Source of the DNA: an uncultured Pelagibacteraceae bacterium
Lineage (GTDB): Bacteria > Pseudomonadota > Alphaproteobacteria > Pelagibacterales > Pelagibacteraceae
Reading direction: 5' to 3'
DNA length: 36,261 bases
NCBI GenBank assembly: GCA_902611465.1
Contig: CACLZS010000012.1
Span: forward strand, 1 to 36,261
Shown here in pieces: positions 28,451 through 36,261 of the stretch. The notes below the pieces were generated by a model that was not told the origin of the DNA, did no database searches, and worked only from the letters and a program-made list of their open reading frames with translations. Made by a program: the position numbers and the translations under genes. The first letter of the stretch is position 1. The number at the start of each line of letters is the position of its first letter.

Positions 28451-30034
28451 TTAGTACCCTTTTGCGTAACCATCTTTTCTAGGATCGGATCCTCCCAAAA
28501 GGTCCCCTTCTGTACGATTTATCTTAATAGCTTGACCTCCACCATGAGTGCCATCAATATACTCAACATTATGGCCGATTTCTTTCAATTCGTTAAAAAT
28601 TTGATTACCAACTGATTTTTCAAGCTTATAAATATTGTTAAAATGAAAGGCTCTTGGAAAACTTAAAGCCTCTTGAGGACCCATGCCGTAATCAATCATA
28701 TTATTTAAAACATGCACCTGTCCTACTGGCTGATATTGCCCTCCCATAACCCCATAGCTCAAAGTTGTGTTGTTATCTTTGTTAATGACCATACCTGGAA
28801 TAATAGTATGTAATGGTCTTTTTAAGCCCTCAATACAGTTTGGATGTCCATGCTCTACTCTGAAATTTGTACCCCTGTTATGTAAAAGTATTCCACTTTT
28901 GTTTGTAGTGATACCTGATCCAAATACATAACAAACTGAATTAATGATGGAAACACTATTTAAGTCTTTATCTACAACTGTTAGATAAATAGTTTCTGGG
29001 TGAGCTGGAATATTTAAGTCACCAACATCACTGCAAGAATTGAGGTTAATTTTATTAAAAATATCATCAATATTTTTATCACTTAAAATTTCATCTAAAT
29101 CAAAATTTACAAAATTTGGATCGCCTAAACTTGTTTCTTTAACTTTATAAGCTTGTTTTGTAACTTCAGCTTCAAGGTGAAATCTTTCTGTACTGTTGAA
29201 TTTATAGTTTTGAATATTTAGTTTTTCTAACAATTTCATCATAATCAAAACAGTTACACCAGGTCCATTTGGAGGACATTGATGAATAAAATCACCTTTA
29301 TAACTAGATTTTATTGTTTCTGATCTTATTGTGATTTGTTTAGAAAAATCCTCAAAAGTATGTACACCCCCTAATTCGTTTAAACTTTCAATTATGTCTT
29401 TTGCAGTTTCACCCTCATAAAATTCTTTGCTTCCTTTTTTACTAATTGCCTCTAATGTTTTTCCTAAAGGAATATTTTTCATTAATTCATTTTCTTGATA
29501 AGTACGACCTTCTTTCAAAAAAATTTTTTTAGAATTTTCATTTCCATTAATTTTATTTAAACTATTATGCCAAGCATTTGATACTACTTTAGAAATCTTG
29601 TGACCATTTTTTGCAATCTCAATTGCACCTGTAAACAATTGTTCAAAATCTAATTTTCCAAATTCTTTATGAATAGTTTCCCAAGCATGAACTGCACCAG
29701 GAATCGTTACTGAATGAGGACTTGTTAATCCGATTTTATCTATATTTTTTTCCTTGAAGAAATCATAACTTAATTTCTCTGGTGCTAACCCAGATCCATT
29801 AAAAGATACTGCATCCTTATTATTCATTTTAACTATAGCAAAGCAGTCTCCACCAATACTTGTTGCATTAGGCTCAACCACAGATAAAACAATTGAAGCT
29901 GCTATAGAAGCATCTACTGCATTTCCACCCATTTTTAGTATTTTTAAGGCCTCTTCTGTCGCTAATGGATGAGAAGTTGCAGCCATAGCATTTGCTGACC
30001 GAGCATCTTTATCTTTAGTTGATTGATTATTCAT
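28451..30034 (-). CDS. Gamma-glutamyltransferase-family Ntn hydrolase
   Basis: 527 residues. N-terminal AMAATSHPLATEEALKILKMGGNAVDASIAA matches the family, as do the TNKSGILLHNRGTNF and GMVINKD segments. The self-cleavage and nucleophile site is predicted at Thr348 (HPETIYLTVVDKDLNSVS). The QCPPNGPGV motif and IINSVCYVFGSG block resemble the YwrD/HpxW branch (HpxW is an oxamate amidohydrolase) more than classical glutathione-cleaving Ggt. There is no signal peptide, whereas classical Ggt is periplasmic, so this is likely cytoplasmic. First gene of a three-gene minus-strand operon; 26 bp from the divergent MFS gene. Confidence 0.88.
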   Translation of the reverse strand: MNNQSTKDKDARSANAMAATSHPLATEEALKILKMGGNAVDASIAASIVLSVVEPNATSIGGDCFAIVKMNNKDAVSFNGSGLAPEKLSYDFFKEKNIDKIGLTSPHSVTIPGAVHAWETIHKEFGKLDFEQLFTGAIEIAKNGHKISKVVSNAWHNSLNKINGNENSKKIFLKEGRTYQENELMKNIPLGKTLEAISKKGSKEFYEGETAKDIIESLNELGGVHTFEDFSKQITIRSETIKSSYKGDFIHQCPPNGPGVTVLIMMKLLEKLNIQNYKFNSTERFHLEAEVTKQAYKVKETSLGDPNFVNFDLDEILSDKNIDDIFNKINLNSCSDVGDLNIPAHPETIYLTVVDKDLNSVSIINSVCYVFGSGITTNKSGILLHNRGTNFRVEHGHPNCIEGLKRPLHTIIPGMVINKDNNTTLSYGVMGGQYQPVGQVHVLNNMIDYGMGPQEALSFPRAFHFNNIYKLEKSVGNQIFNELKEIGHNVEYIDGTHGGGQAIKINRTEGDLLGGSDPRKDGYAKGY

Positions 30035-32123: not shown

Positions 32124-32684
32124 GTGACGAAAAAAATTGTTTTATTTTTGCTTATAATTTATCCACAACTTGCCGTTGGTGACATTGATCATACAAATAA
32201 TAATAAATATTTTCATATAGGTAAAATGAAATCTTATGATAATGAATTTACTTTATATTTTAAGACAAGAAGTAAAGCGATTATTGCAAGGGGAGAAAAT
32301 TCAAATTATTTGAATGATTACCCCCAAGATTTATATTTATTCGATCATTTATCTAATACAGATTATCCTTTAATAACATATGAATGGTTTCCAAAAAAAA
32401 TAAAAAAATTATTTAAAAATTATTCTTATCCATTATTTCCAGAAGATTTTGCATATTATCTTTTAAATGATAACAATACCCTAATTTTAGTAAGCGGTAA
32501 AAAAAGTTTCAATCAAAATTTACAGTATAATATAAAAAAAAATGAATTAAATAATTTTGAAAATTCAGGGAAATTGAATTTTATAATTTCATCTTATGCA
32601 AAAATATGTGGCTATAAATCTCATGATAATAAATTTGAATGTAAACTTCAAAAACCTTTGGTTTCTAAAAATTTAATCAATTAA
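32124..32684 (+). CDS. Exported protein of unknown function
   Basis: 186 residues from GTG 32124 (the overlapping ATG at 32122 reads straight into TGA). Signal peptide-like start (KKIVLFLLIIYPQLAVG, cleavage near residue 19). The mature part is Asn/Lys/Tyr-rich with no motif I recognise; one possible disulfide pair lies near the C-terminus (ICGY, ECKL). The 3' end overlaps the convergent ftsY gene by 8 bp. Confidence 0.65.
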   Translation: MTKKIVLFLLIIYPQLAVGDIDHTNNNKYFHIGKMKSYDNEFTLYFKTRSKAIIARGENSNYLNDYPQDLYLFDHLSNTDYPLITYEWFPKKIKKLFKNYSYPLFPEDFAYYLLNDNNTLILVSGKKSFNQNLQYNIKKNELNNFENSGKLNFIISSYAKICGYKSHDNKFECKLQKPLVSKNLIN

Positions 32685-33594
32685 ATTGAGTAAAAGCATC
32701 TGCAAATTGCTCTGCATTAAATATTTGTAAATCATCTATTTTTTCACCAAGACCTAATCCAATAATTGGTACTTTATATTTTTTTGAGATAGCAATTAAT
32801 ACTCCACCTTTAGCTGTTCCATCTAGTTTGGTCATAATTAGACCTGTGATTTTAATAATTTTATCAAATTCTTCTAATTGATTTATTATATTCTGCCCTG
32901 ATGTTGCATCTAAGACTAAGATTACATCCTGTGGCGCATTTTCATCTGTCTTTTTGATGACATTTGCAATTTTTTTAAATTCATCCATCAAATTTTTTTT
33001 ATTTTGTAATCTGCCAGCTGTATCAATAAGTACCTGACTAATATTGTTGTTTTTTGCGTGTTCTATCGCCTTATACGCAACTGAAGCTGGGTCAGATCCT
33101 GGATTTGACTTAATAATTGTTGCGCCAACTTTATCAGACCAAGACTCTAGCTGATCAATAGCTGCTGCCCTAAAGGTATCGCAAGCAGAAAATATTACTT
33201 CTGAGCCGTTATCTTTAAATATTTTACCAATTTTTCCTATAGTAGTAGTTTTACCTACTCCGTTTACACCAGATACTAATGTTACATTTAAATTTTCTTT
33301 TTTTTCAAAAAAATCTTTTCTTTCCAAAGGTATCATCAATTCCAGGATATACTCCTTTAGAATTAAATTTATTTCCTCAACTACATTTTTTTTTGGATCT
33401 ATTTTTTTTTGAGAGATAATACTTTTTATTTCAGATGAGGCATCAATACCAACATCAGAACTAATCAAAAATTCTTCAATTTTATTTAATGTTTCATCAT
33501 CAATTTCTTTTTTTACAATTATTTCTCTAAGCCCTGAAGAAATACTATCAGCACTTTTTTTAAAACCTAATTTGAACTTTTCAAAAATACCCAT
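32677..33594 (-). CDS. ftsY: Signal recognition particle receptor FtsY
   Basis: 305 residues: the NG GTPase domains without the acidic N-terminal A domain found in E. coli, as usual in alphaproteobacteria. P-loop GVNGVGKTTTIGK (~109-121), SACDTFRAAAIDQLESW, DTAGRLQNKKNLM, TKLDGTAKGG and the C-terminal GLGEKIDDLQIF. It docks ribosome-bound SRP (Ffh) at the membrane. The start shares a base with the dapF stop. Its partner gene ffh lies about 1 kb away on the other strand. Confidence 0.97.
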   Translation of the reverse strand: MGIFEKFKLGFKKSADSISSGLREIIVKKEIDDETLNKIEEFLISSDVGIDASSEIKSIISQKKIDPKKNVVEEINLILKEYILELMIPLERKDFFEKKENLNVTLVSGVNGVGKTTTIGKIGKIFKDNGSEVIFSACDTFRAAAIDQLESWSDKVGATIIKSNPGSDPASVAYKAIEHAKNNNISQVLIDTAGRLQNKKNLMDEFKKIANVIKKTDENAPQDVILVLDATSGQNIINQLEEFDKIIKITGLIMTKLDGTAKGGVLIAISKKYKVPIIGLGLGEKIDDLQIFNAEQFADAFTQFN

Positions 33595-34418
33595 TAGATA
33601 TTTATGTCTATTTCTTTGATACTAGACACTGGACCTTTCATATGAATTTGTTGATTTTCGTCAATAGAAATTACTAATTTGCCTAAACTAAATTCAATTT
33701 CAGTTCTTGAATTTTCTAAACTTTCTAAATTTGCTGCTACTGCTGTTGCACAAGCGGCTGTTCCACATGCTTTTGTTAAGCCTGCACCTCTTTCCCAAAC
33801 TTTAACTTTATAATAATTTTTATTTATTTTTTGTGCGATTGTTAAATTGCATTTTTCTGGAAATAATTCATTATTTTCAATCTCAGGTCCAATTTTCTCT
33901 ATATTAAAATTTTCTATTTCATTAACAAAGAAAATAGTATGAGGATTGCCTACATTTACAGCAATACCACCAGATATTTCATGGTTGTTATTATCTCTTA
34001 TACTTATACCTAAATTTTTAGTATCTAGATTTTCAGATAAAGGAATTTCTTTCCAATTAGTTTTTGGTACACCAATTATTGTTTCAACTTGACCATCATC
34101 AAGTAGATTTGAATTTAATTGTTTTGATGCTACTCGAAGGTTTATACTTTTTTTGTTTTTTTCTTTTGATAGTAAGTACGCAACACATCTTGTGCCATTT
34201 CCACATGCATCTGACCCAGAGCCATCAGAATTATAAAATACTAGTTCAGCATCAGCATCATTACTTTTGTTAATATAGATTAGTTGGTCACAGCCAACAA
34301 AATCTCTATCACAAATCTTAACAATTTGGTCTTCGCTTAATTCTATAATTTTTTGTCTTTGGTCAATAATTACAAAATCATTGCCAAGACCATCCATTTT
34401 AAATGCTTTAAATTCCAT
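33594..34418 (-). CDS. dapF: Diaminopimelate epimerase
   Basis: 274 residues. Converts LL- to meso-diaminopimelate for lysine and peptidoglycan synthesis. The two catalytic cysteines are Cys72 (SDACGNGTRC) and Cys218 (TKACGTAACATAVAA). Also FKMDGLGNDFVIID at the N-terminus and VNVGNPHTIFFV. Translationally coupled to ftsY. In many alphaproteobacteria an mtaB-type gene lies between dapF and ftsY; it is absent here. Confidence 0.97.
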   Translation of the reverse strand: MEFKAFKMDGLGNDFVIIDQRQKIIELSEDQIVKICDRDFVGCDQLIYINKSNDADAELVFYNSDGSGSDACGNGTRCVAYLLSKEKNKKSINLRVASKQLNSNLLDDGQVETIIGVPKTNWKEIPLSENLDTKNLGISIRDNNNHEISGGIAVNVGNPHTIFFVNEIENFNIEKIGPEIENNELFPEKCNLTIAQKINKNYYKVKVWERGAGLTKACGTAACATAVAANLESLENSRTEIEFSLGKLVISIDENQQIHMKGPVSSIKEIDINI

Positions 34419-34442
34419 ATACTTCAGTATTTAACTTATTTA

Positions 34443-34468
34443 TTGACATTTTGAACCTCTATTATAGT
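34443..34468 (+). promoter_or_regulatory. Candidate promoter of ffh
   Basis: A perfect TTGACA (34443-34448) is followed by TATAGT (34463-34468). The spacer is 14 bp, shorter than the ideal 17, so one box may be misassigned. A start about 7 bases on (near 34475) would place the transcript start at the edge of the structured leader. Confidence 0.45.
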
Positions 34469-34470
34469 TT

Positions 34471-34578
34471 ATCGCCGTTTCCGCAAAATACAGCAATTTG
34501 CGGTGTCTTTGGTAACAAAGAGATCGACACCAGTCAGCGAGAGTTCGCCCACTGGTGCGATACTTGCTGGATGTGATT
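34471..34578 (+). ncRNA. Structured 5' leader RNA of ffh (three hairpins and a pseudoknot)
   Basis: Three non-overlapping hairpins can form in a row. HP1: 34481-34487 with 34497-34503 (7 bp, 9-base loop). HP2: 34506-34511 with 34516-34521 (6 bp, GTAA tetraloop). HP3: 34523-34561 (4 bp, one bulged A, 7 bp, a 2x2 internal loop, 4 bp, loop GAGT). The HP1 loop CAGCAA (34491-34496) is exactly complementary to TTGCTG (34564-34569), which covers part of the weak ribosome-binding site GGA before the ATG at 34579. All 34 pairs are Watson-Crick. The segment is visibly more GC-rich than its surroundings. I cannot match it to SRP RNA, tRNA or a riboswitch I know. Confidence 0.75.
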
Positions 34579-35937
34579 ATGTTTGAAAATTTAACAAATA
34601 AATTTGAAGAAATATTTTCTTCTTTAAAAAAGGCACCTTCGCTTGATGAAAAGCAAGTAGATGAGGGTTTGAGAGAGATTAGGCTTGCTTTATTAGAGGC
34701 TGATGTATCTTTAGAAGTTGTAAAAGAATTTATTAATAGAGTGAAACCTAAAGCTCTTGGCCAAGGGATCGTCAGATCTACTACACCTGGACAGATGGTG
34801 GTTAAAGTTGTTAACGATGAGTTAGTTTCTTTTTTAGGCGATAAAAATTCTGAAATAGAATTAAATGCAGTACCTCCAGTCCCTATGATGCTTGTGGGGC
34901 TTCAAGGTTCGGGAAAAACAACTACGACTGCGAAACTTGCTAGATTTTTAGAGATTAATAAAAAGAAAAAAGTAATGATGGCTAGTCTTGATGTCTATAG
35001 ACCAGCTGCACAAGAGCAACTAAGACTTTTGGGTGAGCAAAATAATATAATAACGCTTCCAGTCATCAAAGATCAACTTCCTGCAGATATTTGTAGAAGA
35101 GCGATTAGTGCTGCTAATCTTAATGGAGCAGATGTAATTCTCTTTGATACAGCCGGAAGAACACAGATTGATTTACAAATGATGAGTGAGATTAAACAAA
35201 TTGAAAGTATTATAAATCCGTCAGAAACAATTCTTGTCGCAGATTCTTTGACTGGCCAAGTAGCAGCTAATGTAGCTAAAGAATTTAAAAGTACTGTTAA
35301 TCTGACAGGTATTATTCTTACAAGATCAGATGGTGATGGAAGAGGTGGAGCAGCATTAAGTATGAAATATGTTGCAGATGTTCCAATTAAATTTTTAGGA
35401 GTTGGTGAAAAGATAGAAAATTTTGAAGTTTTTCACCCAGACAGAATTGCCAATAGAATTTTAGGTATGGGAGATATTGTTTCCCTTGTTGAAAAGGCTG
35501 CAGAAGATCTAGATGAAGAAAAATTAAAAAAAACAGAGGAAAAATTAAAAAAAGGTCAGTTCTCATTAGAGGATTATCTTACTCAGCTAAGACAAATGAA
35601 AAAAATGGGTGGTATTGAAGGTATAATGTCTTTTTTGCCTGGTGTTTCAAAAGTTAAATCTCAAATGGATCAAGCTGGAGTGGATGAAAAAATAATTACT
35701 CAAAACGAGGCGGTAATATTATCTATGACTAAAAAAGAGCGTGAAAACCCTAAGATTATAGATGGTTCTAGAAAAAAAAGAATTGCTAATGGCTCAGGAA
35801 CAGACGTAGCCACTATCAATAAATTGCTTAAGCAATTTAAGATGATGTCAGAAATGATGAAAAAAATGTCAAAAGGAAATACAAAAGGAATGATGGATAA
35901 AGGCATACCACCAGAACTTTTTAATCAATTAAAATAA
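34579..35937 (+). CDS. ffh: Signal recognition particle protein Ffh
   Basis: 452 residues from ATG 34579 (FENLTNKFEEIFSSLKK, the normal Ffh start). The frame extends upstream to GTG 34555, but that start would put 8 residues encoded by the structured leader in front. Domains: N (~1-90), GTPase G (~95-295) with P-loop GLQGSGKTTTTAK (~107), DTAGRTQID and the TRSDGDGRGGAAL motif, then the M domain (~325-452) with Met-rich helices (MMSEMMKKMSKGNTKGMMDKG) that bind SRP RNA and signal peptides. It delivers nascent membrane proteins to FtsY. Followed 12 bp later by rpsP. Confidence 0.97.
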   Translation: MFENLTNKFEEIFSSLKKAPSLDEKQVDEGLREIRLALLEADVSLEVVKEFINRVKPKALGQGIVRSTTPGQMVVKVVNDELVSFLGDKNSEIELNAVPPVPMMLVGLQGSGKTTTTAKLARFLEINKKKKVMMASLDVYRPAAQEQLRLLGEQNNIITLPVIKDQLPADICRRAISAANLNGADVILFDTAGRTQIDLQMMSEIKQIESIINPSETILVADSLTGQVAANVAKEFKSTVNLTGIILTRSDGDGRGGAALSMKYVADVPIKFLGVGEKIENFEVFHPDRIANRILGMGDIVSLVEKAAEDLDEEKLKKTEEKLKKGQFSLEDYLTQLRQMKKMGGIEGIMSFLPGVSKVKSQMDQAGVDEKIITQNEAVILSMTKKERENPKIIDGSRKKRIANGSGTDVATINKLLKQFKMMSEMMKKMSKGNTKGMMDKGIPPELFNQLK

Positions 35938-35949: not shown

Positions 35950-36261
35950 ATGTTAAAGATGCGTTTATCAATGGGAGGAACTAAGAAGAGACCAGTATAT
36001 AAGATAGTGGTTGCTGATAGTAGGTTCCCAAGAGATGGAAGATTTATAGAAAAATTAGGTTTTTTTAATCCTCTAATTCCGAGAGAAAAAAAAGAAAGAA
36101 TGGGATTAGATGTTGAGAGAGTTAAGTATTGGCTGGGTCAAGGGGCACAACCAACAACTAGAGTTGCAAGATTATTAGGAGAAAATGAGATTATGCCTAT
36201 GCCAGCAAAAGGTAATAATCCTCAAAAAGCAATTCCAAAAAAAGATAGAAAGAAAAATGAA
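35950..36261 (+). CDS. rpsP: 30S ribosomal protein S16 (partial, cut by right edge)
   Basis: The frame is open for 104 codons to the window end. The sequence [24 protein letters not shown], then [17 protein letters not shown] and [21 protein letters not shown], is typical of S16, which binds and stabilises 16S rRNA in the small-subunit body. Usual S16 is ~80-90 residues, so a basic C-terminal tail ([10 protein letters not shown]) is present as in many alphaproteobacteria. The ffh-rpsP order is conserved, normally followed by rimM, trmD and rplS. Confidence 0.96.

Follow-up and report, generated by a model that had tools for sequence, protein, structure and literature searches.

What does the structured RNA leader ahead of ffh in SAR11 bacteria respond to, and which of the genes behind it does it serve? 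The locus was examined in a single stretch of DNA (hereafter the window), comprising the 36,261 nt of contig CACLZS010000012.1 (assembly GCA_902611465.1) from an uncultured Pelagibacteraceae bacterium, whose genome spans 1.18 Mb in 38 contigs and is estimated to be 80% complete. The leader is the gap between the divergent genes dapF (33594-34418, minus strand) and ffh (34579-35937, plus strand), with rpsP next at 35950. In 'Cand. Pelagibacter ubique', too, ffh and dapF flank the element (PMC2704228). On the minus-strand side, positions 32677-34418 encode dapF and a protein resembling FtsY, with the SRP54 GTPase and N domains. Both are divergent from ffh, which in this SAR11 source genome thus has the likely gene for the SRP receptor close by. 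A first-pass annotation, made from the letters of the window, had described the leader as three hairpins (7, 6 and 15 bp) joined by a pseudoknot, and had proposed that it sets the level of Ffh through sensing of a ligand, of Ffh itself or of a component of the SRP or ribosome. The features considered here are as follows.

34443..34470, plus strand: candidate promoter (-35 TTGACA at 34443-34448, spacer of 16 nt, -10-like TAGTTT at 34465-34470)
34481..34503, plus strand: hairpin HP1, 7 bp (34481-34487 with 34497-34503), loop 34488-34496
34491..34496 with 34564-34569, plus strand: claimed pseudoknot (HP1-loop CAGCAA against TTGCTG), rejected as a conserved feature
34506..34521, plus strand: hairpin HP2, 6 bp (34506-34511 with 34516-34521), GNRA loop GUAA
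34513..34565, plus strand: match to RF01793 (ffh motif), 58.7 bits, gathering score 35
34523-34526 with 34558-34561, plus strand: extra base of HP3, 4 bp, without covariation support
34528..34557, plus strand: core of hairpin HP3, 11 bp (34528-34534 with 34551-34557, 34537-34540 with 34545-34548)
34565..34570, plus strand: conserved UGCUGG element, apparently unpaired, with a GYUUGG-like form elsewhere in the Alphaproteobacteria
34579..35937, plus strand: ffh (Ffh, 452 aa; Pfam SRP54_N, SRP54, SRP_SPB), first gene past the leader
35950..36261, plus strand: rpsP (ribosomal protein S16; Pfam Ribosomal_S16), continuing beyond the end of the window

At gathering scores (Infernal, Rfam 15) the window yielded RF01793 alone, with positions 1-52 of the model covered in full. 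HP3 of the leader is this known family; the 52-position model takes in HP3, the letters flanking it and the 3' strand of the HP2 stem, while HP1 and the pseudoknot lie outside it. The suspicion in the first-pass annotation that the element might be found in Rfam was therefore correct (58.7 against 35 bits), and, with so strong an Infernal hit, novelty of the RNA has to be given up. In 2009 Meyer et al. defined the ffh motif, one bulged hairpin preceding ffh whose bulge carries two conserved cytosines; it occurred in SAR11 and in every member of the Rhodobacterales, Sphingomonadales and Rhizobiales fully sequenced by then (PMC2704228). The same authors detected it in small-RNA metatranscriptomes, found no likeness to the part of 4.5S RNA that Ffh binds, and proposed regulation of Ffh as possible (PMC2704228). 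Two further reports touch on it: an 'ffH leader RNA' belongs to the sRNAs that Bartonella bacilliformis expresses (PMC7717549), and a Mesorhizobium huakuii plasmid has an RF01793 transcript on record (PMC5596092). The window has the score, the bulged hairpin with two conserved cytosines and the downstream ffh that mark the family. Across overlapping genome samples RF01793 was present in 50/61 relatives; in the family the count was 128/147, in the order 268/297 and in the class 106/385. These counts are lower bounds owing to Infernal's stricter filters; control genomes gave 0/14 in each of the relative, family, order and class searches.

The leader begins just past the candidate promoter, as had been noted from the window, and this arrangement is general. 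A TTGAC box lay upstream in all 86 SAR11 leaders, all 61 from elsewhere in the class and all 13 from the PS1 clade (160/160; shuffles expect 6-8%), the PS1 leader L242 falling outside the test with its contig end too near. In 81 of the 86 SAR11 leaders the box sits 69-74 nt ahead of the RF01793 start. The -10 box was assigned by eye from the window sequence and its relatives, and transcription would start near 34476-34478. A generic promoter scan of the window did not list the candidate promoter before the ffh leader among its reports.

All pairs of HP1, HP2 and HP3 in the window, and the 6-bp complementarity, are Watson-Crick; HP3 reaches 15 bp if its 4-bp base is counted, and its breaks are a bulged A and a CA/CC internal loop. 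Treated as a single RNA, positions 34471-34590 had a folding energy of -37.6 kcal/mol (z -3.08), with 1 of 200 shuffles equally good. This predicted fold contains HP2 and HP3 and replaces HP1, so support for HP1 comes from comparison and not from energy. The comparison used 108 SAR11 loci (families f1 and f2) that reduced to 86 distinct leaders. Among these, 585 of 601 HP1 cells were paired, with changes on both sides in 3 of 7 pairs, and 496 of 502 HP2 cells, with such changes in all 6 pairs; the HP2 loop was GNRA in 60 of 86. The middle stem of HP3 was paired in 601/601 cells and its top stem in 344/344, with both-side changes in 2/7 and 1/4 pairs, respectively. The 4-bp base of HP3 was rejected, its 293/340 paired cells (0.862) matching the shuffled mean of 0.863 with zero compensatory change.

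A subset of 24 SAR11 representatives (<90% identity, with the N-holding rows L083 and L162 left out) gave the same picture. RNAalifold, unguided and by design unable to draw pseudoknots, returned HP1 and the HP3 core complete; of the six HP2 pairs it recovered five, along with an additional pair beneath them, and 10 of the 24 pairs in its structure showed both-side changes. Paired cells amounted to 97.0% for HP1, 99.3% for HP2 and 100% for HP3; the shuffle and slide controls on this subset took the whole structure, pseudoknot included. Judged by this comparison the leader hairpins are real: HP1 and HP2 covary in SAR11, and what had been read from one sequence as three hairpins stands for HP1, HP2 and the 11-bp core of HP3, while the 4-bp base of HP3 drops out.

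A covariance model built from the 24 representatives matched all 72 sources drawn from the rest of the class and from PS1 (E up to 0.1). These represent 71 genomes (L109 and L247 share one), and since all had been pre-chosen as RF01793 matches, a match to the model proves by itself HP3 alone; L039, L237, L238, L240, L244 and L248 were fetched and stood outside this search. In the resulting class-wide alignment, which leans towards the SAR11 model, 84.1% of HP1, 88.9% of HP2 and 99.9% of HP3 cells were paired. Both-side changes occurred in 22 of 24 pairs, compared to a shuffled mean of 19.1 (1 of 500 shuffles as high); like those of the SAR11 comparisons, these controls make no correction for relatedness. 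On this alignment the SAR11-trained three-hairpin model fits leaders across Alphaproteobacteria, with a clear HP1 or HP2 absent in some class members. One partial antisense match (L092) is also present in the alignment.

In the window the mismatches in the bulge of HP3 are C.C at 34535/34550 and A.C at 34536/34549. Among the distinct HP3s that could be parsed (61 SAR11, 57 class and 10 PS1; 2 of 59 class hairpins were unparsed), the C.C mismatch recurred in 127 of 128, and the position beside it was A.C in 97, A.A in 12, C-G in 9, G.U in 6, G-C in 2 and other in 2. By its sequence variation the bulge looks like a fixed C.C mismatch next to a position that tolerates A.C, C-G and G.U. Past HP3, a loose UGCUGG/GYUUGG-like pattern, counted without a chance control, was found in 79/86 SAR11, 48/64 class (3 of the 64 being PS1) and 9/9 PS1 leaders.

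Other pairings were weighed and are not part of the model we propose. An extended HP2 (GGU at 34502-34504 with AUC at 34523-34525) has standard pairs in all rows and no both-side change within SAR11, and it overlaps HP1 and the base of HP3. Complementarity between the 5' tip of the leader (34467-34479), which may precede the transcript start, and the stretch before the start codon (34562-34578) gave z 2.3 in SAR11 against controls of -0.2 to 1.0, reaching 10 bp with G.U in L073 in inconsistent registers. With wider segments, which took in HP1 letters and the first letters past HP3, the score was 14.32 versus 13.12 permuted in SAR11 (sd 0.24, maximum 13.81) and 13.14 versus 12.59 (sd 0.33) in the class. 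Given the weak signal and the inconstant registers, a helix closing the leader is not claimed.

The pseudoknot was the centre of the first-pass annotation, in which the HP1 loop pairs with the region of the ribosome-binding site and works as a switch. Its 6-bp complementarity (CAGCAA/TTGCTG) is exact in the window, a length of match that arose in 3.8% of trials when shuffled loops were set against shuffled 3' segments. Across the 86 SAR11 leaders, at least 6 Watson-Crick pairs were possible at this site in 16 and at least 5 in 29; 62.4% of cells were paired, just more than in the best-scoring of 500 shuffles (62.2%), and both-side change was seen at 3 of the 6 pairs. Against this, the HP1 loop drifts freely (46 forms in 86 leaders, one holding N) and its 3' partner is nearly constant, mostly UGYUGG. 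In the 24 representatives only 48.9% of pseudoknot cells were paired, versus 97-100% for the hairpins. Over all 69 distinct combinations of loop and 3' segment the mean score was 10.10 against 9.90 permuted (sd 0.22), and the Watson-Crick length averaged 3.88 where permutation gave 3.63 (sd 0.10; highest of 300, 3.87); without CAGCA loops the slight excess was gone (54 combinations, 8.91 versus 8.97 permuted). Tested in three ways, the pseudoknot is rejected as a conserved, covarying feature, complementarity outside CAGCA loops being that of permuted controls. Perfect in the window and not kept in most relatives, the pairing is best seen as a coincidence within the window's clade, or at most as an extra peculiar to it, since its 3' partner appears to be conserved for another reason. 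A pseudoknotted switch is accordingly very improbable, and the hiding of the ribosome-binding site, which was to follow from it, falls with it, being unsupported among the SAR11 leaders.

Gene context was compared across the class. Of 106 class matches, 97 fell outside both SAR11 and PS1. From these 97, the leader comparison took 61 and the context comparison 56, with 34 unfetched. The context set held 60 class loci, in 57 of which the motif was located by exact string, 3 of them PS1 (it was unlocated in L178, L216 and L234, the genome of L178 being represented by L246 in the PS1 rpsP comparison described below). The order motif, ffh, rpsP on one strand was found in 52 of the 54 non-PS1 loci with a located motif, with rimM, trmD and rplS next in most class loci where the stretch was long enough. 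Ribosomal-protein genes (rpsP, and rplS in most long stretches) thus lie downstream of the leader on its own strand. The two exceptions were L217, whose contig stops 98 nt past the motif, and L210, where Ffh is represented by only ∼137 residues and 7.5 kb of sequence contain no rpsP. The whole block motif-ffh-rpsP-rimM-trmD-rplS was also present on two Paracoccus plasmids of ∼1.7 Mb (L331 and L332), the 2 examined of 6 plasmid matches; a second plasmid search with another leader gave no match.

The Ffh M domain (PF02978) was matched in 346 of the 385 class genomes. It was unmatched in the other 39, including the high-completeness genomes G170 (100%), G143, G190, G135 and G114. Motif-bearing class genomes without a listed Ffh match, picked out by eye, were four of family f51 plus G081, G159, G336 and G290. 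In G081, G159 and G336 the contig ends within ∼1 kb past the motif, and G290 is the L210 case.

In family f51 of the class sample, two genomes of which (G783 and G793) are PS1-clade records, the motif stands directly ahead of rpsP-rimM-trmD-rplS. The PS1 clade, placed by NCBI in Alphaproteobacteria incertae sedis, was represented by 18 genomes (G109, G234, G330, G407 and G780-G793), 6 of them at least 90% complete. RF01793 was detected in 14 of the 18 (for example at 107-159 in CACBCD010000007.1 and at 28468 in CACANC010000003.1) and was unmatched in 4, including the 96%-complete G780. In all 14 it lay directly before rpsP, whose match starts 79-86 nt past the start of the RF01793 match on the same strand, and the position upstream of ffh that otherwise marks the family is lacking in this order. 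PF02978 was found in 0/18 PS1 genomes and in 14/14 controls, and the SRP GTPase domain common to Ffh and FtsY exceeded the cut-off in none of the 18; the one partial match, in G782, covered 41 positions below the cut-off (20.5 bits, E 2.2e-4). The small bacterial SRP RNA (RF00169), the only SRP RNA family searched, was found in 0/18 at E up to 1 and in 13/14 controls. YidC was found in 15 of the 18, and in 6/6 of the best genomes, so such genes are detectable here. From the sequence searches, the PS1 order is apparently without the whole signal recognition particle pathway; among the open-licence PMC matches listed, nothing was on point for a loss of SRP in PS1. At the loci of genus g219 (L236, L237 and L251) rimM was unmatched in the short rpsP-trmD gap and hence is not a constant member of the gene run. 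The element is most simply taken as the leader of a run in which rpsP, trmD and rplS are the constant members.

We read the RNA as the leader of a (ffh-)rpsP-(rimM)-trmD-rplS operon that mediates feedback by an operon product, S16 or L19 being the first candidates, and give this reading a probability of roughly 0.5. Ribosomal-protein operons are usually controlled in this way, with a ribosomal protein exerting the feedback. A stronger version is offered more tentatively, namely that the name 'ffh motif' is a misnomer for a class-wide three-hairpin leader of rpsP-(rimM)-trmD-rplS in which ffh is a passenger, a leader read by an operon product and surviving in the apparently SRP-less PS1. Among the open-licence PMC matches listed, none reassigned the motif to rpsP. 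Under the operon reading, the 5' leader would be transcribed from the promoter just upstream and represent the SAR11 form of RF01793, with three consecutive hairpins and the UGYUGG/GYUUGG element preceding the first gene of the ffh-rpsP-rimM-trmD-rplS run. S16, L19 or another operon product would bind HP3 with its near-invariant C.C mismatch and lower the translation or transcription of the operon. A protein on HP3 could hinder the 30S subunit at the start region, given the short distance from the end of HP3 to the start codon (21 nt in the window and ∼36 nt in the PS1 leader L236). In some Alphaproteobacteria (L191 and L181) the first matched part of Ffh lies ∼180-285 nt beyond HP3, so simple blocking of the ribosome site cannot be a general mode of action.

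Autoregulation of Ffh, in which free Ffh (or a shortage of 4.5S RNA) would act through binding of Ffh to the leader and repress ffh, was raised as a possibility by Meyer et al. (PMC2704228), and ffh is the first matched gene past the motif both in the window and in 52/54 non-PS1 class loci. Exclusive occurrence with Ffh and SRP RNA nevertheless fails in PS1 (motif 14/18, PF02978 0/18, RF00169 0/18), where the element is retained before rpsP and neither Ffh, an SRP-type GTPase nor SRP RNA was found. The leader is also unlike the Ffh site (PMC2704228), and RF00169 matches elsewhere in the source genome. Because PS1 keeps the RNA before rpsP without detectable ffh, ftsY or SRP RNA, a role as sensor of Ffh or SRP is unlikely, and the proposal that the leader controls Ffh level in this way is weakened accordingly. 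The leader would instead act on the ribosomal-protein operon. That the leader is SRP RNA itself is excluded: RF00169 was absent from the 8 Rfam matches obtained for 34300-34700 at E up to 10, and the SRP RNA has its own genomic locus.

The main rival to operon feedback, although we consider it only about half as probable, is a leader that senses nothing, whose hairpins shield the operon transcript against decay from its 5' end or set a constant level of initiation; the small RNA that has been seen would then be the decay-resistant leader. Retention in PS1 could also reflect such a role in RNA stability or general expression, the hairpins come directly behind the promoter box, and the RNA appears in small-RNA metatranscriptomes (PMC2704228) and among the expressed sRNAs of B. 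bacilliformis (PMC7717549). A near-invariant C.C mismatch and a conserved GYUUGG-like element are more than a plain stabilising hairpin needs. Detection as a small RNA (PMC2704228) would also fit a transcription attenuator, with HP3 and a U-rich tail as a conditional terminator releasing the RNA, and in some class members HP3 is followed by 5-6 U. This is improbable, marginally more so than autoregulation by Ffh: a terminator was searched for in the window leader and none was found, and the mean U fraction over the 12 nt past HP3 is just 0.39-0.43.

RF01793 has been viewed as a possible regulator of Ffh since 2009. In lineages that apparently lost ffh yet keep the RNA, nature has done the experiment of parting the two, and the outcome points towards the adjacent ribosomal-protein genes. 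The question of the ligand thereby becomes testable with few candidate proteins, and the three-hairpin description supplies the construct to test.

In comparison with known systems, the leader shares with the SRP RNA (RF00169, 4.5S RNA) the Ffh theme alone, the two differing in locus and in model match. Closer parallels are the leaders of ribosomal-protein genes, among which we take the L19 leader to be a comparable case. Like the rpsB and rpsL motifs (PMC2704228), the RNA is a structured 5' leader, here of a run with rpsP and rplS; unlike them, its first gene is usually ffh. A look-alike of the HP3 core with its C.C mismatch was not seen in E. coli 16S or 23S rRNA (shuffled mean ∼0.6; one species, one pattern). 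RF01793 as described and the leader reported here have in common HP3 and the pair of conserved cytosines in its bulge, the place before ffh in SAR11 and, among the genomes searched, restriction to Alphaproteobacteria (0/14 controls). Where the family was described with ffh, the present comparison adds an rpsP-only context without ffh, and the bulge now resolves into a C.C mismatch and an inner position that is A.C, C-G, G.U, G-C or A.A. The single bulged hairpin of the original description is joined here by HP1, HP2, a promoter box and a GYUUGG-like element.
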